Positions 1 to 6,651 of a stretch of DNA of 6,651 nucleotides are shown here, in pieces. A program made the translations under genes and the position numbers. Origin of the DNA: an uncultured Bryobacterales bacterium (GTDB lineage Bacteria; Acidobacteriota; Terriglobia; Bryobacterales; UBA6623); assembly GCA_946887065.1 (NCBI GenBank), contig CAMPKL010000204.1:1-6651 (forward strand), read 5' to 3'. The notes under the pieces are model-generated. The model did no database searches. It was not told where the DNA came from and worked only from the letters and a program-made list of their open reading frames with translations. Positions within the stretch are counted from its first letter, which is position 1; each line of letters begins with the position of its first letter.

Positions 1-41
1 ACACCCGCCGCTTACGCGCCTGGGCTCGGGTTGCGCTTCGC

Positions 42-1451
42 TTAATCCGCCTTGATTAGGGCGCCGGCGTTGAGTAGGCATTCGAAGAAGATTTCGGCTT
101 CGTCGAGATCGATGGCGGCCTCGCTTAGGGATTCGCGCAGGGTTACTGTTCCGTCGAGTTTGGCCAGGGCTTCGGCGGCCCACTCGGGGCAGTCGGTGCG
201 GAAGTGGAAGGGGTGTTGGCAGTCTAGGATGCGATTGAAGGAGCGCCAGCGGTTTTCGCTGATGGCGGAGGTCGATTCGAGGGTGGACCAGGACGAGAGA
301 ACGAGGCGCTGATCGAGTATGCCGGTGATCTCGGGGACGGGTGCGAAGGCGGCGTCGAGTTCGGCGGCGCCCGTGCCTTGGCCCATGACGCGGCGCATGA
401 CTTGCGGTCCGCCGGCGGATTCGCGGGCGACGACGACGGCGCAGCGGACGAGTTGCGTGACTCCGGCTTCGCGAAAGCTGAGGACTTGGCGAACGCCTTC
501 GTCGAAGCCGAGTTCACCTGCTTCGACAAGCCGCATGACGAATTCGACGGCGGCGAGAGATTCCCACTCAGCGACTAGAAGACGAAACTCATGGGCGTCT
601 GGGCCGAGCATCGCCAATAGGCGTTCTTCGACTGGAGCGTCGGAGTGATCGCAGGCGAGCGTGCTGAGGTAGGCGCGTCCGCCGGGGCGGAGATGTTTCG
701 AGAGGCCTTGGAGAATGCGGCGCAGGATGTCTTCGCCGTGGGGTCCGCCGTGGCGGTAACTCTCGCCTTCGCCCAGCGTGGGGATGTAAGGCGGGTGGGC
801 GATGATGCGGTCGAAGGTGCGCGAGCCGAGGGCGTCGTAGACGTCGCTTTGCAGAACCTCGGCGTTCGACACGCCGTTCAGGCGCCGGTTGAACTCGGCG
901 AAGAGAACGCAGCGCGGGCTGATGTCGCCGGCGCAAACAGCGGCGGCGTAGTCGCGGGCGGCGGCTAGCGACGCCGCCGCGGCGCCGGCGCCGATGTCGA
1001 GCAACGCTTCGCAGGGCGTATCGGGCAGGATGGCGTGGAACTGATGGCTTTGGGTGGAGAGGGCGGGGAAGACGAAATCTTCGCGCGAGGCTCCGGGGAA
1101 GTCGGAAGCGATCCAAAGGTCTTCGAAGGGGTAGAGCAGGCAAGTCGCTTTGACGGAGTCGCCCTCGGGCACAACCAAGCCGAGCGCCTGGAGGGAGGCT
1201 AGTGCCTCGTCGCCGAGCAGAGAAGCGGCGGCGGCGGTCTCGACTGTTTGGGCGCGGGCGAAAAGATCGATGAGAACGCCGAGGGTATCTGGATTTTCCG
1301 GCGAGCCGGCTTGAAGCCTTTCGGCGATGGGTTGCTCCAGAAATCCGGCGCTCGTCAGCAGTTGCCGGACCGCGGCGAAATGCTCAGGTGAAGCTAGTTG
1401 CAGCGGCACGTCCCATGCTAACAATCGGGCCGCCGGACGAGAACTTGGCAC
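42..1451 (-). CDS. HemK/PrmC-like class I SAM-dependent methyltransferase with N- and C-terminal extensions
   Basis: Predicted cytoplasmic methyltransferase of 469 residues. The Rossmann-like core lies at about residues 130-300. It has SAM-binding motif I LLDIGAG (150-156), an acidic residue after strand 2 in AGDISP (D176), NRRLNG (188-193), and motif IV as AHPPYIP (218-224). PPY in motif IV is typical of enzymes that methylate a planar amide or exocyclic nitrogen (PrmB/PrmC, N6-adenine enzymes), but the usual Asn/Asp/Ser before PPY is His219 here. About 130 residues precede the core and look helical, like a small winged-helix or substrate-recognition domain. The last ~100 residues (DGTVTLRES ... 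NAGALI) also look like a winged-helix fold. The whole is much longer than PrmC (~280 residues), so it is probably not the release-factor enzyme itself, and the substrate is unknown. The start is uncertain. The longest form begins with GTG at 1451 without a clear ribosome binding site; TTG at 1424 and GTG at 1409 are in-frame alternatives. It is divergent from the nfeD-like gene. Confidence 0.85.
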   Translation of the reverse strand: MPSSRPAARLLAWDVPLQLASPEHFAAVRQLLTSAGFLEQPIAERLQAGSPENPDTLGVLIDLFARAQTVETAAAASLLGDEALASLQALGLVVPEGDSVKATCLLYPFEDLWIASDFPGASREDFVFPALSTQSHQFHAILPDTPCEALLDIGAGAAAASLAAARDYAAAVCAGDISPRCVLFAEFNRRLNGVSNAEVLQSDVYDALGSRTFDRIIAHPPYIPTLGEGESYRHGGPHGEDILRRILQGLSKHLRPGGRAYLSTLACDHSDAPVEERLLAMLGPDAHEFRLLVAEWESLAAVEFVMRLVEAGELGFDEGVRQVLSFREAGVTQLVRCAVVVARESAGGPQVMRRVMGQGTGAAELDAAFAPVPEITGILDQRLVLSSWSTLESTSAISENRWRSFNRILDCQHPFHFRTDCPEWAAEALAKLDGTVTLRESLSEAAIDLDEAEIFFECLLNAGALIKAD

Positions 1452-1462
1452 GTGAAATGAAC

Positions 1463-1469
1463 GTATACT
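1463..1469 (+). promoter_or_regulatory. Candidate -10 element for the nfeD-paraslipin operon
   Basis: TATACT at 1464-1469 matches five of six bases of the sigma-70-type -10 consensus. It would place transcription start near 1476, giving a leader of about 20 bases that includes the ribosome binding site. A TTGGCA at 1445-1450 matches a -35 box in five of six bases, but the spacer would be only 13 bases, so I do not pair the two. The core GTATAC (1463-1468) is palindromic, so weaker minus-strand initiation toward the methyltransferase is conceivable. Confidence 0.4.
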
Positions 1470-1483
1470 TGGGTTCGATCTGT

Positions 1484-1489
1484 AGGAGA
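1484..1489 (+). promoter_or_regulatory. Ribosome binding site of the nfeD-like gene
   Basis: AGGAGA lies seven bases before a GTG codon at 1497. It decides the non-ATG start of the nfeD-like gene, whose hydrophobic N-terminus begins right there. Confidence 0.75.
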
Positions 1490-1496
1490 AACCGAA

Positions 1497-1928
1497 GTGC
1501 CCTGGTGGATTTGGATCGTGAGCGGGCTAGTTCTCGCGGGCCTGGAGGCGGTGCTTGCAGGCGGCGAGTTGTACCTGCTGTTCATCGGAGCGGCGGCTGT
1601 TGTGGTGGGCTTTGTGGCCCTCGGCGGCGGACATGCGATGACGACGCAGTTGTTCGTGTTCTGCGCGGTTGCGGGAGGTTTGTTGATCTTCTTCCGCAGG
1701 CGGCTTTCGGATCGGCTGAAGGCGGGCGCGGTCGACCGAGTGGTCGATACGTTCGTTGGCGAGCGGGCGCGCGCTGTTAAGGATTTGGCGGGGGGCGGCG
1801 AAGGCAAGGTGGAGTTTCGCGGATCGGCGTGGAACGCCAGGAACTTGGACGAGCGAAGCATCGCAGCCGGCCAAGCTTGCCGAGTAGAGAAGGTCGAGGG
1901 ACTCACGCTGTGGGTGCGATCGGAGTAG
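1497..1928 (+). CDS. Short NfeD family membrane protein (NfeD1b/YbbK-like partner of SPFH protein)
   Basis: Small integral membrane protein of 143 residues. It begins with a hydrophobic block (about residues 3-43) long enough for two membrane helices, containing the NfeD-like stretch GLEAVLAGGELYLLFIG. A further helix follows at about 50-67, ended by FFRRRL on the cytoplasmic side. The remainder (about 83-143) is a soluble beta-rich OB-fold: FVGERARAV, then GSAWNAR (109-115), IAAGQACRVEKVEGLTLWV. The G-x-x-W-x-A pattern and the GLTLWV ending are characteristic of NfeD. The N-terminal ClpP-like serine protease of long NfeD proteins is absent, so this is the short form, which typically sits next to a stomatin or paraslipin gene. 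The gene starts at GTG behind a good ribosome binding site and is followed after 15 bases by the paraslipin gene, so the two are very likely co-transcribed and their products associate in the membrane. Confidence 0.9.
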   Translation: MPWWIWIVSGLVLAGLEAVLAGGELYLLFIGAAAVVVGFVALGGGHAMTTQLFVFCAVAGGLLIFFRRRLSDRLKAGAVDRVVDTFVGERARAVKDLAGGGEGKVEFRGSAWNARNLDERSIAAGQACRVEKVEGLTLWVRSE

Positions 1929-1932
1929 GGAA

Positions 1933-1939
1933 GGGAGGA
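1933..1939 (+). promoter_or_regulatory. Ribosome binding site of the paraslipin gene
   Basis: GGGAGGA sits in the 15-base gap between the NfeD stop and the ATG at 1944, four bases before the start. It supports that start and translation as the second gene of an operon. Confidence 0.75.
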
Positions 1940-1943
1940 TTCG

Positions 1944-2867
1944 ATGGAGTTCGGAGTTTTACTTGTACTCGGCTTCCTGCTGATCGTCTTGCTGATCTTG
2001 ATCGCGAAGACGGCGGTGGTCGTGCCGCAGCAAAGCATTTACGTGATCGAACGCTTAGGCAAGTTCGCGGGGACGCTGGAGGCGGGATTCCACATCTTGA
2101 CGCCGTTCGTCGACTTGATCCGTTACAGGCATTCGCTCAAGGAGACGGCGATCGATATTCCCGAGCAGGTCTGCATCACGCGCGACAACGTGCAAGTCGG
2201 CGTGGACGGCGTGTTGTATCTGAAGGTGATGGACGCGGAAAGGGCGTCCTACGGTATTTCGAACTACATCTTCGCGGTGACGCAGTTGGCCCAGACGACG
2301 CTGCGCAGCGAGATCGGCAAGATCGATCTCGACAAGACTTTCGAGGAACGCGGCACGATCAATGCGCAGGTGGTGGAGGAGTTGGACAAGGCAAGCGATC
2401 CTTGGGGCGTCAAAGTGATGCGCTATGAGATCAAGAACATCAATCCGCCGCGCGATGTGCTTGAGGCGATGGAGAAGCAGATGCGCGCCGAGCGTGAGAA
2501 GCGGGCGAGAATCCTGGAGTCCGAAGGCGCCCGCGACTCAGCCGTCAACAATGCCGAGGGCGACAAGCAGAAGACGATCAAAGAATCGGAGGCGCAGAAG
2601 CAGCGGCAGATCAACGTTGCCGAAGGCGAAGCGGCGGCGGTGTTGACGGTTGCCGAGGCTACGGCGGAAGGGATTCGCAAGGTGGCTCAAACGATCACGC
2701 AGCCGGGCGGTTTCGAGGCGGTGCAGTTGCGGCTGGCCGAGCGCTACATTGAGCAGTTCGGCAAATTGGCTCAGCATAACAACGCGATGATCGTGCCGTC
2801 GAACGTCAGCGACGTGGCGGGAATGTTGGCGACGGCGATGGAAGTGGTGAAGCGGCGCGAGACGTAG
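1944..2867 (+). CDS. qmcA: SPFH/Band 7 paraslipin (stomatin-like, QmcA type)
   Basis: Membrane scaffold protein of 307 residues, about the usual length for QmcA or paraslipin. One N-terminal membrane anchor lies at about residues 4-22. The SPFH domain then follows: VPQQSIYVIERLGKF (27-41), LEAGFHILTPFVD (45-57), RHSLKETAIDIPEQVCITRD (62-81), VDGVLYLKV (87-95) and ASYGISNYIFAVTQLAQTTL (101-120). LDKTFEER (129-136) and WGVKVMRYEIKNINPP (154-169) are hallmark paraslipin stretches. Residues about 170-245 form a charged, Ala/Glu-rich helical segment (AEREKRARILESEG ... EGEAAAVL) that drives oligomer assembly in this family. The C-terminal part (GGFEAVQLRLAERYIEQF ... IVPSNVSDVAGM) is also conserved. 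Family members form large membrane-bound cages or microdomains and work with NfeD proteins, and the upstream gene encodes exactly such a partner. The gene ends six bases from the stop of the convergent PAD-like gene. Confidence 0.95.
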   Translation: MEFGVLLVLGFLLIVLLILIAKTAVVVPQQSIYVIERLGKFAGTLEAGFHILTPFVDLIRYRHSLKETAIDIPEQVCITRDNVQVGVDGVLYLKVMDAERASYGISNYIFAVTQLAQTTLRSEIGKIDLDKTFEERGTINAQVVEELDKASDPWGVKVMRYEIKNINPPRDVLEAMEKQMRAEREKRARILESEGARDSAVNNAEGDKQKTIKESEAQKQRQINVAEGEAAAVLTVAEATAEGIRKVAQTITQPGGFEAVQLRLAERYIEQFGKLAQHNNAMIVPSNVSDVAGMLATAMEVVKRRET

Positions 2868-2873
2868 CCGGGA

Positions 2874-4556
2874 TCATCGAATGATGCCGAAGACGCAATG
2901 GACGCCGCCGTTGTTGATGAGCGATGTGCGGGCGTTGACCGGAACGATGTCGTAGGCGCCGTTGAGATCGCTGCGCAGCTTGGAGATGAAGTTCTCCTCG
3001 ACCTGACCGAGGCCGAGCGTGGGCACGAAGAGAGTGCGGTCGAAGGCAAGCATGTTGGCGTAGCCGACGCCCGGCCACAAAGTATGGAAGGTCTTGGCGG
3101 CCAAATGCGGCGCGCGAACCACCTGAAAGCCCCAACCTTGGAGTTTGGATGCCGCTTCGTCCAGCAGGCTCTCACGCCACTCCGGCTTTGCGACTTGAGC
3201 TTCAACTAGGTCGAGAAGAAGGGGCCGCAACAGTTCATTGATTGCCGCGGCGGCATCTTGAGAGATCGAGCTGCGCAATAACTCGCGGTCTTGGTCCAGC
3301 ATTTGCACGGCGCCGGCTGCATCGAAACAGCCCTCCGGGTTTTGCGGGCAGTACTTGGTGATGTATGCGTTGAGACGACGGGTGATCTGCGGGTCGCTTT
3401 TTTCGGAAACGCTTCCAAGTTGGCGTCGTGCGGCGGCAATCGAATCGATCAACACTCGTGCGGCCTTCTTATCGGAACCGTCCCAATCGGCTGCGGCCGC
3501 CGCCAATGCGAGAAATTCCGAAGGAGCCTGGTCTGCGAAGGAGCCAACGAGTTCGAATGCGGCCGCCCGAGCCACGTCGGGATTTGCGGAGACCAACTGG
3601 GAGACTAGAGCCGTACGGCCGGCGGGCAGAAAGGCGACGAGATAGTCGGCATGGGGTCCGAGGCGACTCAGATCGAGGACGTCATCGGCTCCGAACTCGA
3701 CGCGCAGTACGTAGCTGTACTCCTTGGCGGTCAATTCGGGTCCCCAGTACACGCGGGCTGTCGCGCCGTGGGCGAGGATGATTCGGCTGGGGTCGTTGGG
3801 ATTGGCGACGAATTGCAGGTCGCCGCCTTCCCAAGAGAGCTTCGAGCGGACGACGTGGGGTTCCTCAAGACGCTGCAGCAAGGACTCGAACTTTGCGCCA
3901 TCCTCGGGGCGGCCTTCGTACAAGTGACGGGGTATCAAGACGCGCCGTTCGCCGTGTACCGTGCCGGCTTCGAGATGGTCCTGGGTCCAGGGATGCGCCT
4001 GTTCGAGACCCGTGTCGAAGAAGTCGAGATGGTGGGGCGTGCCCCCGAAGTGATAGGCCGCGGTAGGCTGCCAAAGCTCTTTGGGAAAGCTGCCTGAGAC
4101 GCTCAGCCGAACGTCGACGGAGCGCGGAAGCTTACCCAAAACGGTCTTGGCGATGTCGAGACTGCTGCCCGAATACTCGGCATCGGCGAAGAAGTTCAGG
4201 GGATCCACGGCGACGTAGAGCCTTTGGATGGGCAAGTCTTCGACGGAAGCGCGGAAACCCGGCAGCGTCGGCTCGTAGTAAATGTGGCAGGCCGCGAACT
4301 TGCCGTTGGGCTGGACGAGGTCCGGCTCGAAAGGCAGGCCTCGATCACGGCAGTAGATCTCCAGGGGTCCAGCCGTATCGGAGCAGGCGAATGAAAAGGC
4401 GTTGGGGGCGGCGGAGTCGGCGTAGCCTTCCTTCAAAGGGAGGGGGACGACGGTAACTCCCCCGCCCGCGCTAGACGCGCTTTGCGCCATCGCCAATGGA
4501 AGAATAATTAGGCCCGCGGCGGTTGCCGCAACACCAATCGTAGAGAGAAACGACAA
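2874..4556 (-). CDS. Exported protein-arginine deiminase (PAD)-like enzyme, pentein superfamily
   Basis: Predicted guanidino-group hydrolase of 560 residues, probably converting arginine in proteins or peptides to citrulline plus ammonia outside the cytoplasm. Residues 1-24 look like a Sec signal peptide (hydrophobic core, AMA before Q25), although the n-region has no Lys or Arg. The catalytic region resembles the C-terminal domain of animal PADs when compared by eye with remembered human PAD4. PWTQDHLEAG (189-198) matches RWMQDEMEIG, with D193 as the catalytic Asp. GPHADYLVAFLPA (300-312) matches GHVDEFLSFVPA, with H302 and D304. DRELLRSSI (423-431) matches the NRELLKREL segment. GYANMLAFDRTLFVP (498-512) matches the NMLVLGKHLGIP region. 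GGVHCVFGIIR (550-560) matches GEVHCGTNVRR, with nucleophile C554. All four catalytic residues are therefore present, and the protein ends naturally just after the Cys loop. It lacks room for the two immunoglobulin-like N-terminal domains of vertebrate PADs. Extra helical sequence lies at about 320-420. The only usable start is TTG at 4556, because an in-frame TAG lies six codons upstream. The exact substrate is unknown; an agmatine-type enzyme is less likely given the motif spacing. Confidence 0.75.
   Translation of the reverse strand: MSFLSTIGVAATAAGLIILPLAMAQSASSAGGGVTVVPLPLKEGYADSAAPNAFSFACSDTAGPLEIYCRDRGLPFEPDLVQPNGKFAACHIYYEPTLPGFRASVEDLPIQRLYVAVDPLNFFADAEYSGSSLDIAKTVLGKLPRSVDVRLSVSGSFPKELWQPTAAYHFGGTPHHLDFFDTGLEQAHPWTQDHLEAGTVHGERRVLIPRHLYEGRPEDGAKFESLLQRLEEPHVVRSKLSWEGGDLQFVANPNDPSRIILAHGATARVYWGPELTAKEYSYVLRVEFGADDVLDLSRLGPHADYLVAFLPAGRTALVSQLVSANPDVARAAAFELVGSFADQAPSEFLALAAAAADWDGSDKKAARVLIDSIAAARRQLGSVSEKSDPQITRRLNAYITKYCPQNPEGCFDAAGAVQMLDQDRELLRSSISQDAAAAINELLRPLLLDLVEAQVAKPEWRESLLDEAASKLQGWGFQVVRAPHLAAKTFHTLWPGVGYANMLAFDRTLFVPTLGLGQVEENFISKLRSDLNGAYDIVPVNARTSLINNGGVHCVFGIIR
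4488..4556 (-). other. Signal peptide region of the PAD-like enzyme
   Basis: Codons 1-24 (4556 down to about 4485) encode a short n-region without positive charge, a hydrophobic core at about residues 6-21 (IGVAATAAGLIILPLA), and an A-x-A cleavage motif (A22-M23-A24) before Q25. The following Ser/Ala/Gly-rich stretch fits a mature, exported N-terminus. Five Cys besides C554 (C58, C69, C90, C403, C410) could form disulfides in an oxidising compartment. Confidence 0.6.
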
Positions 4557-4609
4557 CGGACGAACCTGTATCTAGTTTGGGTCTGGTTGGCCCGCGCTAG
4601 TTACCGTCA

Positions 4610-4623
4610 CGAATGAAAATTCG
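4610..4623. repeat. Small perfect inverted repeat upstream of dps
   Basis: CGAAT and ATTCG form a 5-base perfect inverted repeat around a GAAA spacer, about 50 bases before the dps start. As RNA it would be a short stem closed by a GNRA-type tetraloop; as DNA it could be half of an operator. A repeat this short can arise by chance. Confidence 0.35.
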
Positions 4624-4660
4624 CGCATCGGTTTTCAGCGTTGCCGCATCTACGAGATGA

Positions 4661-4668
4661 AGAGGAAG
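4661..4668 (+). promoter_or_regulatory. Ribosome binding site that decides the dps start
   Basis: AGAGGAAG lies three bases before ATG 4672, with its AGGA core (4663-4666) five bases from it. The alternative ATG at 4657 would have no purine-rich site and would put this ribosome binding site inside the coding region. The start at 4672 (MATTTL) is preferred. Confidence 0.75.
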
Positions 4669-4671
4669 ATT

Positions 4672-5169
4672 ATGGCCACGACCACACTGACCAAACTAAA
4701 TGCGACGAAGAACGATCTGCCCGAGGCAAAGCGAGAGACGGTCGTCGGGCTCTTGCAGGAGAAGCTGGTCAGCGCAATTGACATGCAGCTTCAGGCCAAA
4801 CAGGCTCACTGGAACGTTAAAGGTCCCAATTTCATAGCGTTGCACGAGCTATTTGATGCAATAGAGGCAGAAGCGAGGGAGTGGGTCGACGAGATCGCGG
4901 AACGCAGTACCGCGCTGGGCGGCGTTGCCGACGGGCGGGCTAAGACTGTCGCGGCGAAAAGCGCGCTGGACGCCTATCCGCTTGAAATCCGGACCGGGCC
5001 GGAGCATGTCGAGGCGCTGGCGAACGCGCTGGCGGCGTTCGGCAAGAGCGTACGCAAAGGCATCGATGCGGCGGAAGCCGAGGGCGATGCGGGCACGCAG
5101 GATCTATTCACGCAAATCTCTCGCGCTGTCGACAAACAGCTCTGGTTCGTCGAGTCGCACAACAACTAA
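4672..5169 (+). CDS. dps: Dps family ferritin-like DNA-protection protein
   Basis: Protein of 165 residues, the normal Dps length. Members assemble as hollow dodecamers that oxidise Fe(II), usually with hydrogen peroxide, store the iron, and in many species coat DNA in starvation or oxidative stress. The ferroxidase signature is intact: H46 in AHWNVKGPNF, H58 and D62 in LHELFD, and D73 and E77 in DEIAER. This is the same spacing as the E. coli residues H51, H63, D67, D78 and E82. The Trp after the first His (W47) is also kept. LGGVADG follows, as in Dps. The N-terminal tail (TKLNATKNDL) carries three lysines before helix 1 and could contact DNA. The ATG at 4672 is preferred over the one at 4657 because of the ribosome binding site. 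It stands alone on its strand, divergent from the PAD-like gene and convergent with the M16 peptidase gene. Regulation by peroxide or iron is usual for the family but no known operator is recognisable here. Confidence 0.95.
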   Translation: MATTTLTKLNATKNDLPEAKRETVVGLLQEKLVSAIDMQLQAKQAHWNVKGPNFIALHELFDAIEAEAREWVDEIAERSTALGGVADGRAKTVAAKSALDAYPLEIRTGPEHVEALANALAAFGKSVRKGIDAAEAEGDAGTQDLFTQISRAVDKQLWFVESHNN

Positions 5170-5178
5170 GCTCGCGGA

Positions 5179-6651
5179 CTAAAGGAGATTCCCTTCGACG
5201 TCCATGCGCCGGATGGGTCCCCAGCCGAGTTCGGAGAGGGGGCCTTCGATCGTCGCACTATCGCCGACGACTATCCAAATCACGCGGTCGGGATCGAGGA
5301 TGAGCTTCGCAGCGGCTTCGGCTTCGGCGATGGTGACGGCGTTGATTCGATCGGCATAGAGTTCGAAATGGTTTTCCGGGAGGCCGTAGATGAGGATGTC
5401 CTGCATGGCTCCGATTACGGCCCGCTTGGTTTCGAAGCTTCCAGGCAGGCTGAGGGTTGCGTTGTTCTTGGCCTGTTGCAACTCTTCGGCGGTGAAGCGT
5501 TTCAGGCCCAGGGCGGCGCGGAGTTCCATGTCCAATTCCTGAAGAGTCTCCTTGGTCTTATCCGCTTGGACTGGCGCGTAAAGCAGGAACGGCCGGGGGC
5601 CCTTGGCGTCGACAAACATGGTGCGCGCGCCGTAGGACCAGTGTTTTTCCTCGCGGATGTTCTGGTTGATGCGCGAAGCGAAATCGCCGCCGAGGATGGC
5701 GTTCATCATCTCAATCGCGGGTTCGTGCGGGTTACTCGTGGGCGGCGCCGGCAGGCCGCCGATGACGACGCTCTGGTGGGCGCCGGGCTTGTCGACAAGG
5801 TAAATGGCGCGCCGGTCGGGGAGCGGCACTTGGGCGATGTTTTTTAGCGGCGGCGGGGCGGAGTCCTGCCAGTGTCCCAGATGCTGCTCTAGGAGGGGCA
5901 AAAGCTCGGCCAGGGTCACGTCGCCGGCCACTGCTAGAGAGGATCGGCTGGGCTGCAACCAGGTGCGGTGGAAGGCGACCAAGTCTCCGCGCGTCATCGC
6001 GGTGACTGTGTCTGGGTGGCCGGTGCCGGTTAGGGGCGTGCCGTAAGCGTGCGTCGAGCCGAAGAGCAGATGGGGAAGCAGCCGGAAGGCGGTGCTGGAG
6101 GGAGCGCTCTTCTCCTGCTCAATTCGCGCTAGCCGTTGCCGCTTAAGGCGGTGGAAGTCGCCGTCGGGGAAGGACGGGTTGCAGATTACGTCGGCGAACA
6201 GTTCCAGTGATGGACCGAGTTGCTCGGTTAGGGCTGAAAGACCGACGTAGCAGGTATCGAGGCCTGCTCGGCCGCCCAGGCCGGCGCCGAGGCGATCGAG
6301 TTGATCGTCGATTTCGAGAGATGTCCTGGTCGTGGTGCCCTCATCGAGCATCGCCATGGTCATGCTGGCCACGCCCGAGGGGGTGAACTGGTCCGCCGCG
6401 AACCCCGCGTCGACAATCAGGGACAACTCGACGGTTGGAATCTCATGCCGCTGAGCGAGAACGACTTGCAGGCCATTGGAGAGAGTCGCTTTTTCGAACT
6501 GGGGGAGCGACAGCTTGGTCTTGCCGGTGCTGGGGGGCGGGGCGGACCGGTCGGCTCCGTTGGAGCTGGAGCGGCGCTCGGGAGCGGGCTGGATGCCCAG
6601 GACGTAAGCGCCGTCGGATAGCCACTCGCGGGCGGTTTCGATCAATTCTTC
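5179..6651 (-). CDS. Two-domain M16 (insulinase-type) zinc peptidase, C-terminal part, truncated by the window edge
   Basis: The reading frame stays open to the right edge, where it reads EELIETAREWLSDG. The TTG at 6645 would be an internal Leu, so the gene continues beyond the window. About 490 residues are visible. WLSDGAYVLGIQPAPE followed by ADRSAPPP matches the linker region before the second domain of fused M16 proteins of roughly 900 residues. Residue numbers here count from the Leu at 6645. The visible domain starts at about 48 (LPQFEKATLSNGLQVVLAQRH). At the place of the zinc motif HxxEH it has GVASMTMAMLDEG (91-103), so the metal ligands and catalytic Glu are replaced by S94, M97 and A98. 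This is the normal inactive partner domain. The substrate-clamping R/Y motif is kept (HWSYGART, Y338 and R341), within the second M16 half that begins at about 280. The active domain should lie upstream, off the window. Such proteins are usually periplasmic and degrade peptides. The 3' end is nine bases from the dps stop. Confidence 0.88.
   Translation of the reverse strand, partial: EELIETAREWLSDGAYVLGIQPAPERRSSSNGADRSAPPPSTGKTKLSLPQFEKATLSNGLQVVLAQRHEIPTVELSLIVDAGFAADQFTPSGVASMTMAMLDEGTTTRTSLEIDDQLDRLGAGLGGRAGLDTCYVGLSALTEQLGPSLELFADVICNPSFPDGDFHRLKRQRLARIEQEKSAPSSTAFRLLPHLLFGSTHAYGTPLTGTGHPDTVTAMTRGDLVAFHRTWLQPSRSSLAVAGDVTLAELLPLLEQHLGHWQDSAPPPLKNIAQVPLPDRRAIYLVDKPGAHQSVVIGGLPAPPTSNPHEPAIEMMNAILGGDFASRINQNIREEKHWSYGARTMFVDAKGPRPFLLYAPVQADKTKETLQELDMELRAALGLKRFTAEELQQAKNNATLSLPGSFETKRAVIGAMQDILIYGLPENHFELYADRINAVTIAEAEAAAKLILDPDRVIWIVVGDSATIEGPLSELGWGPIRRMDVEGNLL

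Follow-up and report, generated by a model that had tools for sequence, protein, structure and literature searches.

The window analysed here is a stretch of 6,651 nucleotides from an uncultured Bryobacterales bacterium of the Acidobacteriota (assembly GCA_946887065.1, contig CAMPKL010000204.1, positions 1 to 6,651). At 2874..4556 on its minus strand lies a gene for a protein of 560 amino acids with a TTG start. The open reading frame (ORF) list, homologues and dN/dS ratios indicate that it encodes a probably exported pentein resembling guanidino-modifying enzymes. A preliminary description had taken the product for a secreted peptidylarginine deiminase (PAD) of the animal type. Judged by its sequence, however, the protein is most likely nearer to the bacterial agmatine deiminases (AgDs) than to the animal citrullinating enzymes, and it most likely belongs to a small acidobacterial family that forms a lineage of its own. 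The dN/dS ratios of six pairs were 0.13, 0.19, 0.13, 0.15, 0.53 and 0.23; in the last three pairs dS exceeded 1 and the values are rough. Since a homologue of 99% identity (P0001) is annotated from the internal Met23, the start codon is uncertain. The longer form with a signal-like N-terminus is present in relatives such as P0002 and P0004.

The ORF and the residues D193, H302, D304 and C554 were all found where the preliminary description had placed them: WTQDHLE contains D193, GPHADYLVAFLP contains H302 and D304, and GGVHC contains C554. The catalytic Asp, His, Asp and Cys thus occur within the pentein domain in the PAD order. Alignment and motif comparison place the first guanidinium-binding Asp in W190-x-Q192-D193 (3978..3989; this and all further features of the protein are on the minus strand), where Q192 takes the place of Gln349 of PAD4. 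The motif W242-E243-G-G-D-L-Q248 (3813..3833) contains a Glu that is common to the 10 AgDs compared and was found in none of the 5 PADs compared. H302-A-D304 (3645..3653) supplies the catalytic His and the second Asp, and G550-G-V-H-C554 (2895..2909) is the motif of the nucleophilic Cys. N501 (3054..3056) is the counterpart of Asn297, as numbered in PMC4893104, of PPAD, the Porphyromonas gingivalis enzyme.

Among about 5.8 billion proteins, a search with the window protein gave 98 homologue clusters at E ≤ 1e-3 and a second search with a profile gave 100. In both searches the best 7,998 candidates by shared words were scored, so the boundary of the family is inexact. Alignment A1 consists of the window protein and 48 of the 98 clusters (49 rows); a later alignment of 101 rows, with all 100 clusters, was used for residue counts, gapped rows being dropped from each denominator. 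D193 is conserved in 96/96 rows, H302 in 97/101, D304 in 101/101, N501 in 99/99 and C554 in 95/99, and this conservation is not due to chance. The full set of D, H, D, N and C is intact in 91 of the 95 near-full-length members, including the window protein. The residue before the catalytic Asp is Gln in all 96 covering rows and in the 5 PADs, and Arg in the 10 AgDs.

In Pfam searches at E ≤ 1, PF04371, which includes the AgDs and PPAD, matched all 49 members of A1 (best E 2e-11), whereas the PAD family PF03068 matched none of the 49. As controls, three actinobacterial PADs (L064, L065 and L066) matched PF03068 at 227-402 bits and two acidobacterial AgD-like proteins matched PF04371 at about 384 bits. 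A family copy exceeded the PF04371 cut-off in each of 12 genomes, in one of them only when neighbouring stretches were added. The search against PAD profiles, which the preliminary description had itself proposed as a check, thus turned out against its animal-type assignment. PAD_N and PAD_M also had no match in the window protein; their absence does not discriminate, because the three actinobacterial PADs lack both. The NCBIfam AgD models TIGR03380 and NF010070 did not match the window protein. The best of the 49 members reached E 5e-5 and 22 bits against a cut-off of 483, and 33 of them matched TIGR03380 weakly (best E 1.6e-4). This cut-off is strict, since the AgD-like controls L041 and L042 fall below it too, at 269-289 bits.

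Against the PDB, the A1 profile found AgD-type chains at E 5e-9 to 0.14 and PPAD at a non-significant E of 0.47-0.6; animal PADs were absent at E ≤ 10, and several unrelated chains appeared in the weaker E range. By hhalign, A1 matched ten AgD-like proteins, taken from the 11 detected in a 12-genome scan, at a probability of 90 and E 1.7e-6 along some 80 residues of the C-terminal part. With the five PADs (four actinobacterial and one human PAD4 fragment) the probability was 3.6. The latter figure says little by itself, because the control of AgD against PAD, two families of one fold, gives 3.8. In Foldseek, a PAD4 entry (rank 17) stood below the first AgDs. The PAD-like layout was borne out in part. 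Of the motif blocks, that of the Asp (WxQDxxE) has a higher mean identity with PADs (22.6%) than with AgDs (13.9%), and there is, as in PADs, a long stretch ahead of the Cys; those of the Glu, Asn and Cys score closer to AgDs. The His block is mixed, with a better substitution score with AgDs and a slightly higher identity with PADs. These blocks were compared in 48 of the 49 rows, P0030 being left out because its His motif was not located. A tree of 33 rows separated PADs from AgDs (100/99 for either group) and united the family with weak support (61/94; recovered in 64% of 200 bootstrap trees). The distant relatives L035 and L038 stood near the base of the family, and long-branch warnings apply to the tree.

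The family also has regions of its own. The alignments show a family-specific N-terminal region (aa 35-125; 4182..4454) with CHxYYxPTxxGFRA, in which C58 is present in 89/89 rows and C90 in 93/93; most of the 50 listed PDB alignments begin only at aa 92-100. The region of aa 322-475 (3132..3593) is almost all helix in the predicted models, and a structure search gave no clear fold match for it. Inside this insert, the Cys pair C403-x6-C410 (3327..3350), with each Cys present in 100/100 rows, likely forms a disulfide. The catalytic His and Cys are 252 residues apart in the window protein and 122 in the AgD-like L041. Their distance is 115 residues in PPAD as described in PMC4893104, 137 fewer than here, and 174 in PAD4 according to PMC13023937.

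According to PMC13023937, Ca1 of PAD4 is bound by residues 349, 353 and 411; residue 349 is printed there as Glu349, yet it is Gln in the PAD4 sequence. By motif-anchored comparison, the 349 place is Gln in 96/96 rows and the 411 place is Gln in 94/100 rows. The 353 place (aa 196) is Lys in 85/96 rows, Glu in 10/96, namely the window protein and close relatives, and Arg in 1/96. Because of the Lys at this place, most members are rather likely to be independent of Ca2+.

The N-terminus (aa 1-24; 4485..4556) resembles a signal peptide, with a hydrophobic core and a possible cleavage after AMA at a small-x-small site. Its hydrophobic stretch and the AMA|Q site pass a crude signal rule; no Lys or Arg precedes the hydrophobic stretch, and aa 1-31 have a predicted local distance difference test (pLDDT) score below 50 in the predicted model. 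The crude rule was passed by 80 of 89 family proteins of at least 530 aa and by 0/10 AgDs. It is loose, however, as 80 of 142 neighbourhood ORFs also passed it, and so did the methyltransferase of the window. By a stricter rule the numbers were 70/89 for the long family members, 62/142 for the neighbouring ORFs and 0/10 for the AgDs. Export of the window protein is likely, as the preliminary description had proposed.

Four full-length members, P0019, P0021, P0024 and P0027, have replaced H302 by Pro or Arg and C554 by Arg, both together, which suggests that they are inactive paralogues. P0027 may be a neighbour of P0012, which is intact, since the longest contig given for either has 5,913 bases. 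There are also short relatives in three genomes of the home order, L078 (1402-2391, plus strand), L079 (1114-2280, plus) and L080 (1441-2019, plus). Their N-terminal region with CHxxYxPT is retained, as is the third motif region, that of EFGVD; by eye, no Asp, HxD or Cys motif was seen in them.

In the window, the pentein gene adjoins NfeD-like and SPFH/stomatin-like genes (1497-2867, plus strand), a common gene pair. Beyond them lies a methyltransferase gene with an MTS domain (42-1451, minus), in which DUF7059 scored 25.6 bits, just below the cut-off of 27. The closest locus, L001, has an M16 peptidase gene, the pentein gene, SPFH, NfeD and the methyltransferase gene in the same order at 80-93% identity. 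A Dps gene (4657-5169, plus) lies between the M16 peptidase and pentein genes of the window and has no match in L001. In L001, the matched stretch of the pentein gene (7001-8617, plus), which is the nearest homologue in a syntenic locus, contains a single in-frame stop, and this may reflect a pseudogene or a sequencing error (the title of this metagenome-assembled genome gives a coverage of 0.10). No conserved operon or partner was found in the loci seen, in agreement with the preliminary description. A separate full-length PF04371 protein, AgD-like in sequence, was found in 11 of 12 genomes examined; two such proteins had agmatine deiminase models as their best NCBIfam matches, below the cut-offs. 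Therefore the window family would be an added, probably exported function.

When genome contigs were scanned with a pattern, 21 loci were found, all of them titled Acidobacteria, Acidobacteriota, Bryobacterales or Bryobacteraceae. Among whole genomes of the phylum, with at most 3 candidates scored per genome, a match was found in 7 of 396, at full length in 3. The order that includes the Bryobacteraceae genome L010 also includes the genome of L001 and hence, very likely, the source of the window; there, 23 of 257 had a match (at most 5 candidates per genome), 16 of them full length and one more (G462) in two pieces. The family is therefore rare and patchy even within its home order. The open-licence literature on Acidobacteria deiminases, citrullination and PF04371 yielded no description of the family, which is weak evidence but fits the earlier suggestion of an undescribed branch. 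Other genomes of the phylum contain more distant penteins, L035 (901-2949, minus), L036 (406-1869, plus) and L038 (1495-2682, minus), with signal-like N-termini by eye, weak PF04371 matches and W-A-Q-D or W-A-R-D motifs. They are possible bridging lineages.

We therefore lean towards the explanation that the window protein is a probably exported, disulfide-stabilised pentein of an acidobacterial lineage on the AgD/PPAD (PF04371) side, perhaps acting on peptide arginine. Guanidino chemistry is probable. D193 and D304 would hold the guanidinium group, C554 would attack its carbon, and H302 with E243 and N501 would move protons. Water would then release ammonia and leave a ureido product of the citrulline type. 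The helical insert may, with the N-terminal region, form the entrance and decide which substrate is accepted. The likeliest substrate would be the arginine of extracytoplasmic peptides, perhaps at a terminus as in PPAD, and the reaction would serve nitrogen scavenging or the modification of surface peptides. Peptide arginine is favoured because export is likely and because PPAD is most alike in location and catalytic set; by this analogy it is a plausible substrate with somewhat less than an even chance, the main alternative being free guanidino compounds. The AgD side may be able to reach such peptides, as PMC8060559 reports in vitro citrullination of fibrinogen and of a peptide by Arabidopsis agmatine deiminase At5g08170.

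Several observations weigh against this explanation. The PF04371 match of the window protein itself is weak (21 bits against a cut-off of 25, E 2e-4, 88 residues at aa 468-555), and hhalign is a weak discriminator here, with 5 rows in the PAD alignment and the AgD-PAD control as low as it is. Foldseek places PAD4 above PPAD, which ranks 27, and the 33-row tree gives the family no nearer neighbour among AgDs or PADs. The carboxylate-binding R152 and R154 of PPAD have no secure counterpart: R210 (92/96 rows) and R216 (79/96) both lie in the corresponding segment, and R210 is a candidate only. The Glu at 196 makes a Ca2+ site possible in the window clade, which might need Ca2+. Finally, a family in which four members lack both His and Cys may have functions besides catalysis. 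An exported pentein with a mainly binding or structural role, its catalysis secondary or lost in places, would account for these four and for the short relatives without catalytic motifs by eye, but this is improbable when 91 of 95 near-full-length members keep the five residues.

That the protein belongs to the animal and cyanobacterial PAD family is very improbable, and the profile tests largely refute it; the low hhalign probability adds a weak argument, and further ones are the lack of a Glu at the EGGD place in the 5 PADs compared and the closeness of the Glu, Asn and Cys blocks to AgDs. An exported deiminase of agmatine or free arginine, feeding nitrogen uptake, would fit with AgDs as the nearest solved structures and with the weak TIGR03380 matches. 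However, the residues invariant in the 10 acidobacterial AgDs are mostly lost, by eye, outside the catalytic motifs, the NCBIfam scores are far below the AgD cut-offs, 11 of 12 genomes have another full-length PF04371 protein, and no recurring transporter or catabolic gene was seen among the neighbours. We consider such a small-molecule enzyme rather unlikely. Also rather unlikely is the idea that Acidobacteriota export a further protein- or peptide-citrullinating lineage, apart from PADs, PPAD and Giardia arginine deiminase (ADI), and mostly independent of Ca2+. There, Lys would fill the Ca1 place, the helical insert would set specificity, and inactive paralogues might pair with active ones.

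Among known systems, agmatine deiminase (AguA; PF04371, TIGR03380; for example 3hvm of H. pylori and 6b10 of C. jejuni) differs from the window protein in length, acidobacterial AgDs having about 350 residues. The window protein also has a signal-like N-terminus, the extra N-terminal region, Gln for Arg before the Asp and the longer His-Cys distance. The plant enzyme At5g08170 has the motif W-x-R-D-[TS]-G, and its PDB chains have 383 residues. PPAD shares the D, H, D, N, C set; as described in PMC4893104, it prefers C-terminal arginine and continues past the Cys with an Ig-like domain and a C-terminal domain. In contrast, the window protein ends 6 residues past C554, with the insert before the Cys, and fewer than 30 columns of the 49-row alignment extend beyond its end. 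Vertebrate, cyanobacterial and actinobacterial PADs resemble it in the long stretch ahead of the Cys and, in the 5 PADs compared, in the Gln before the catalytic Asp; they differ in their profile, in the EGGD Glu present here and in the Ca1 ligand Glu353, whose place is mostly Lys in this family. If the substrate is a small guanidine, the family would be a modest addition to nitrogen scavenging. Protein citrullination is described in PMC8826395 for few enzyme lineages, PADs, PPAD and Giardia ADI. An exported deiminase-like family with apparent pseudoenzymes in environmental bacteria would offer a direct test of whether extracellular citrullination arose again, and of how a built-in charge can replace a Ca2+ site.
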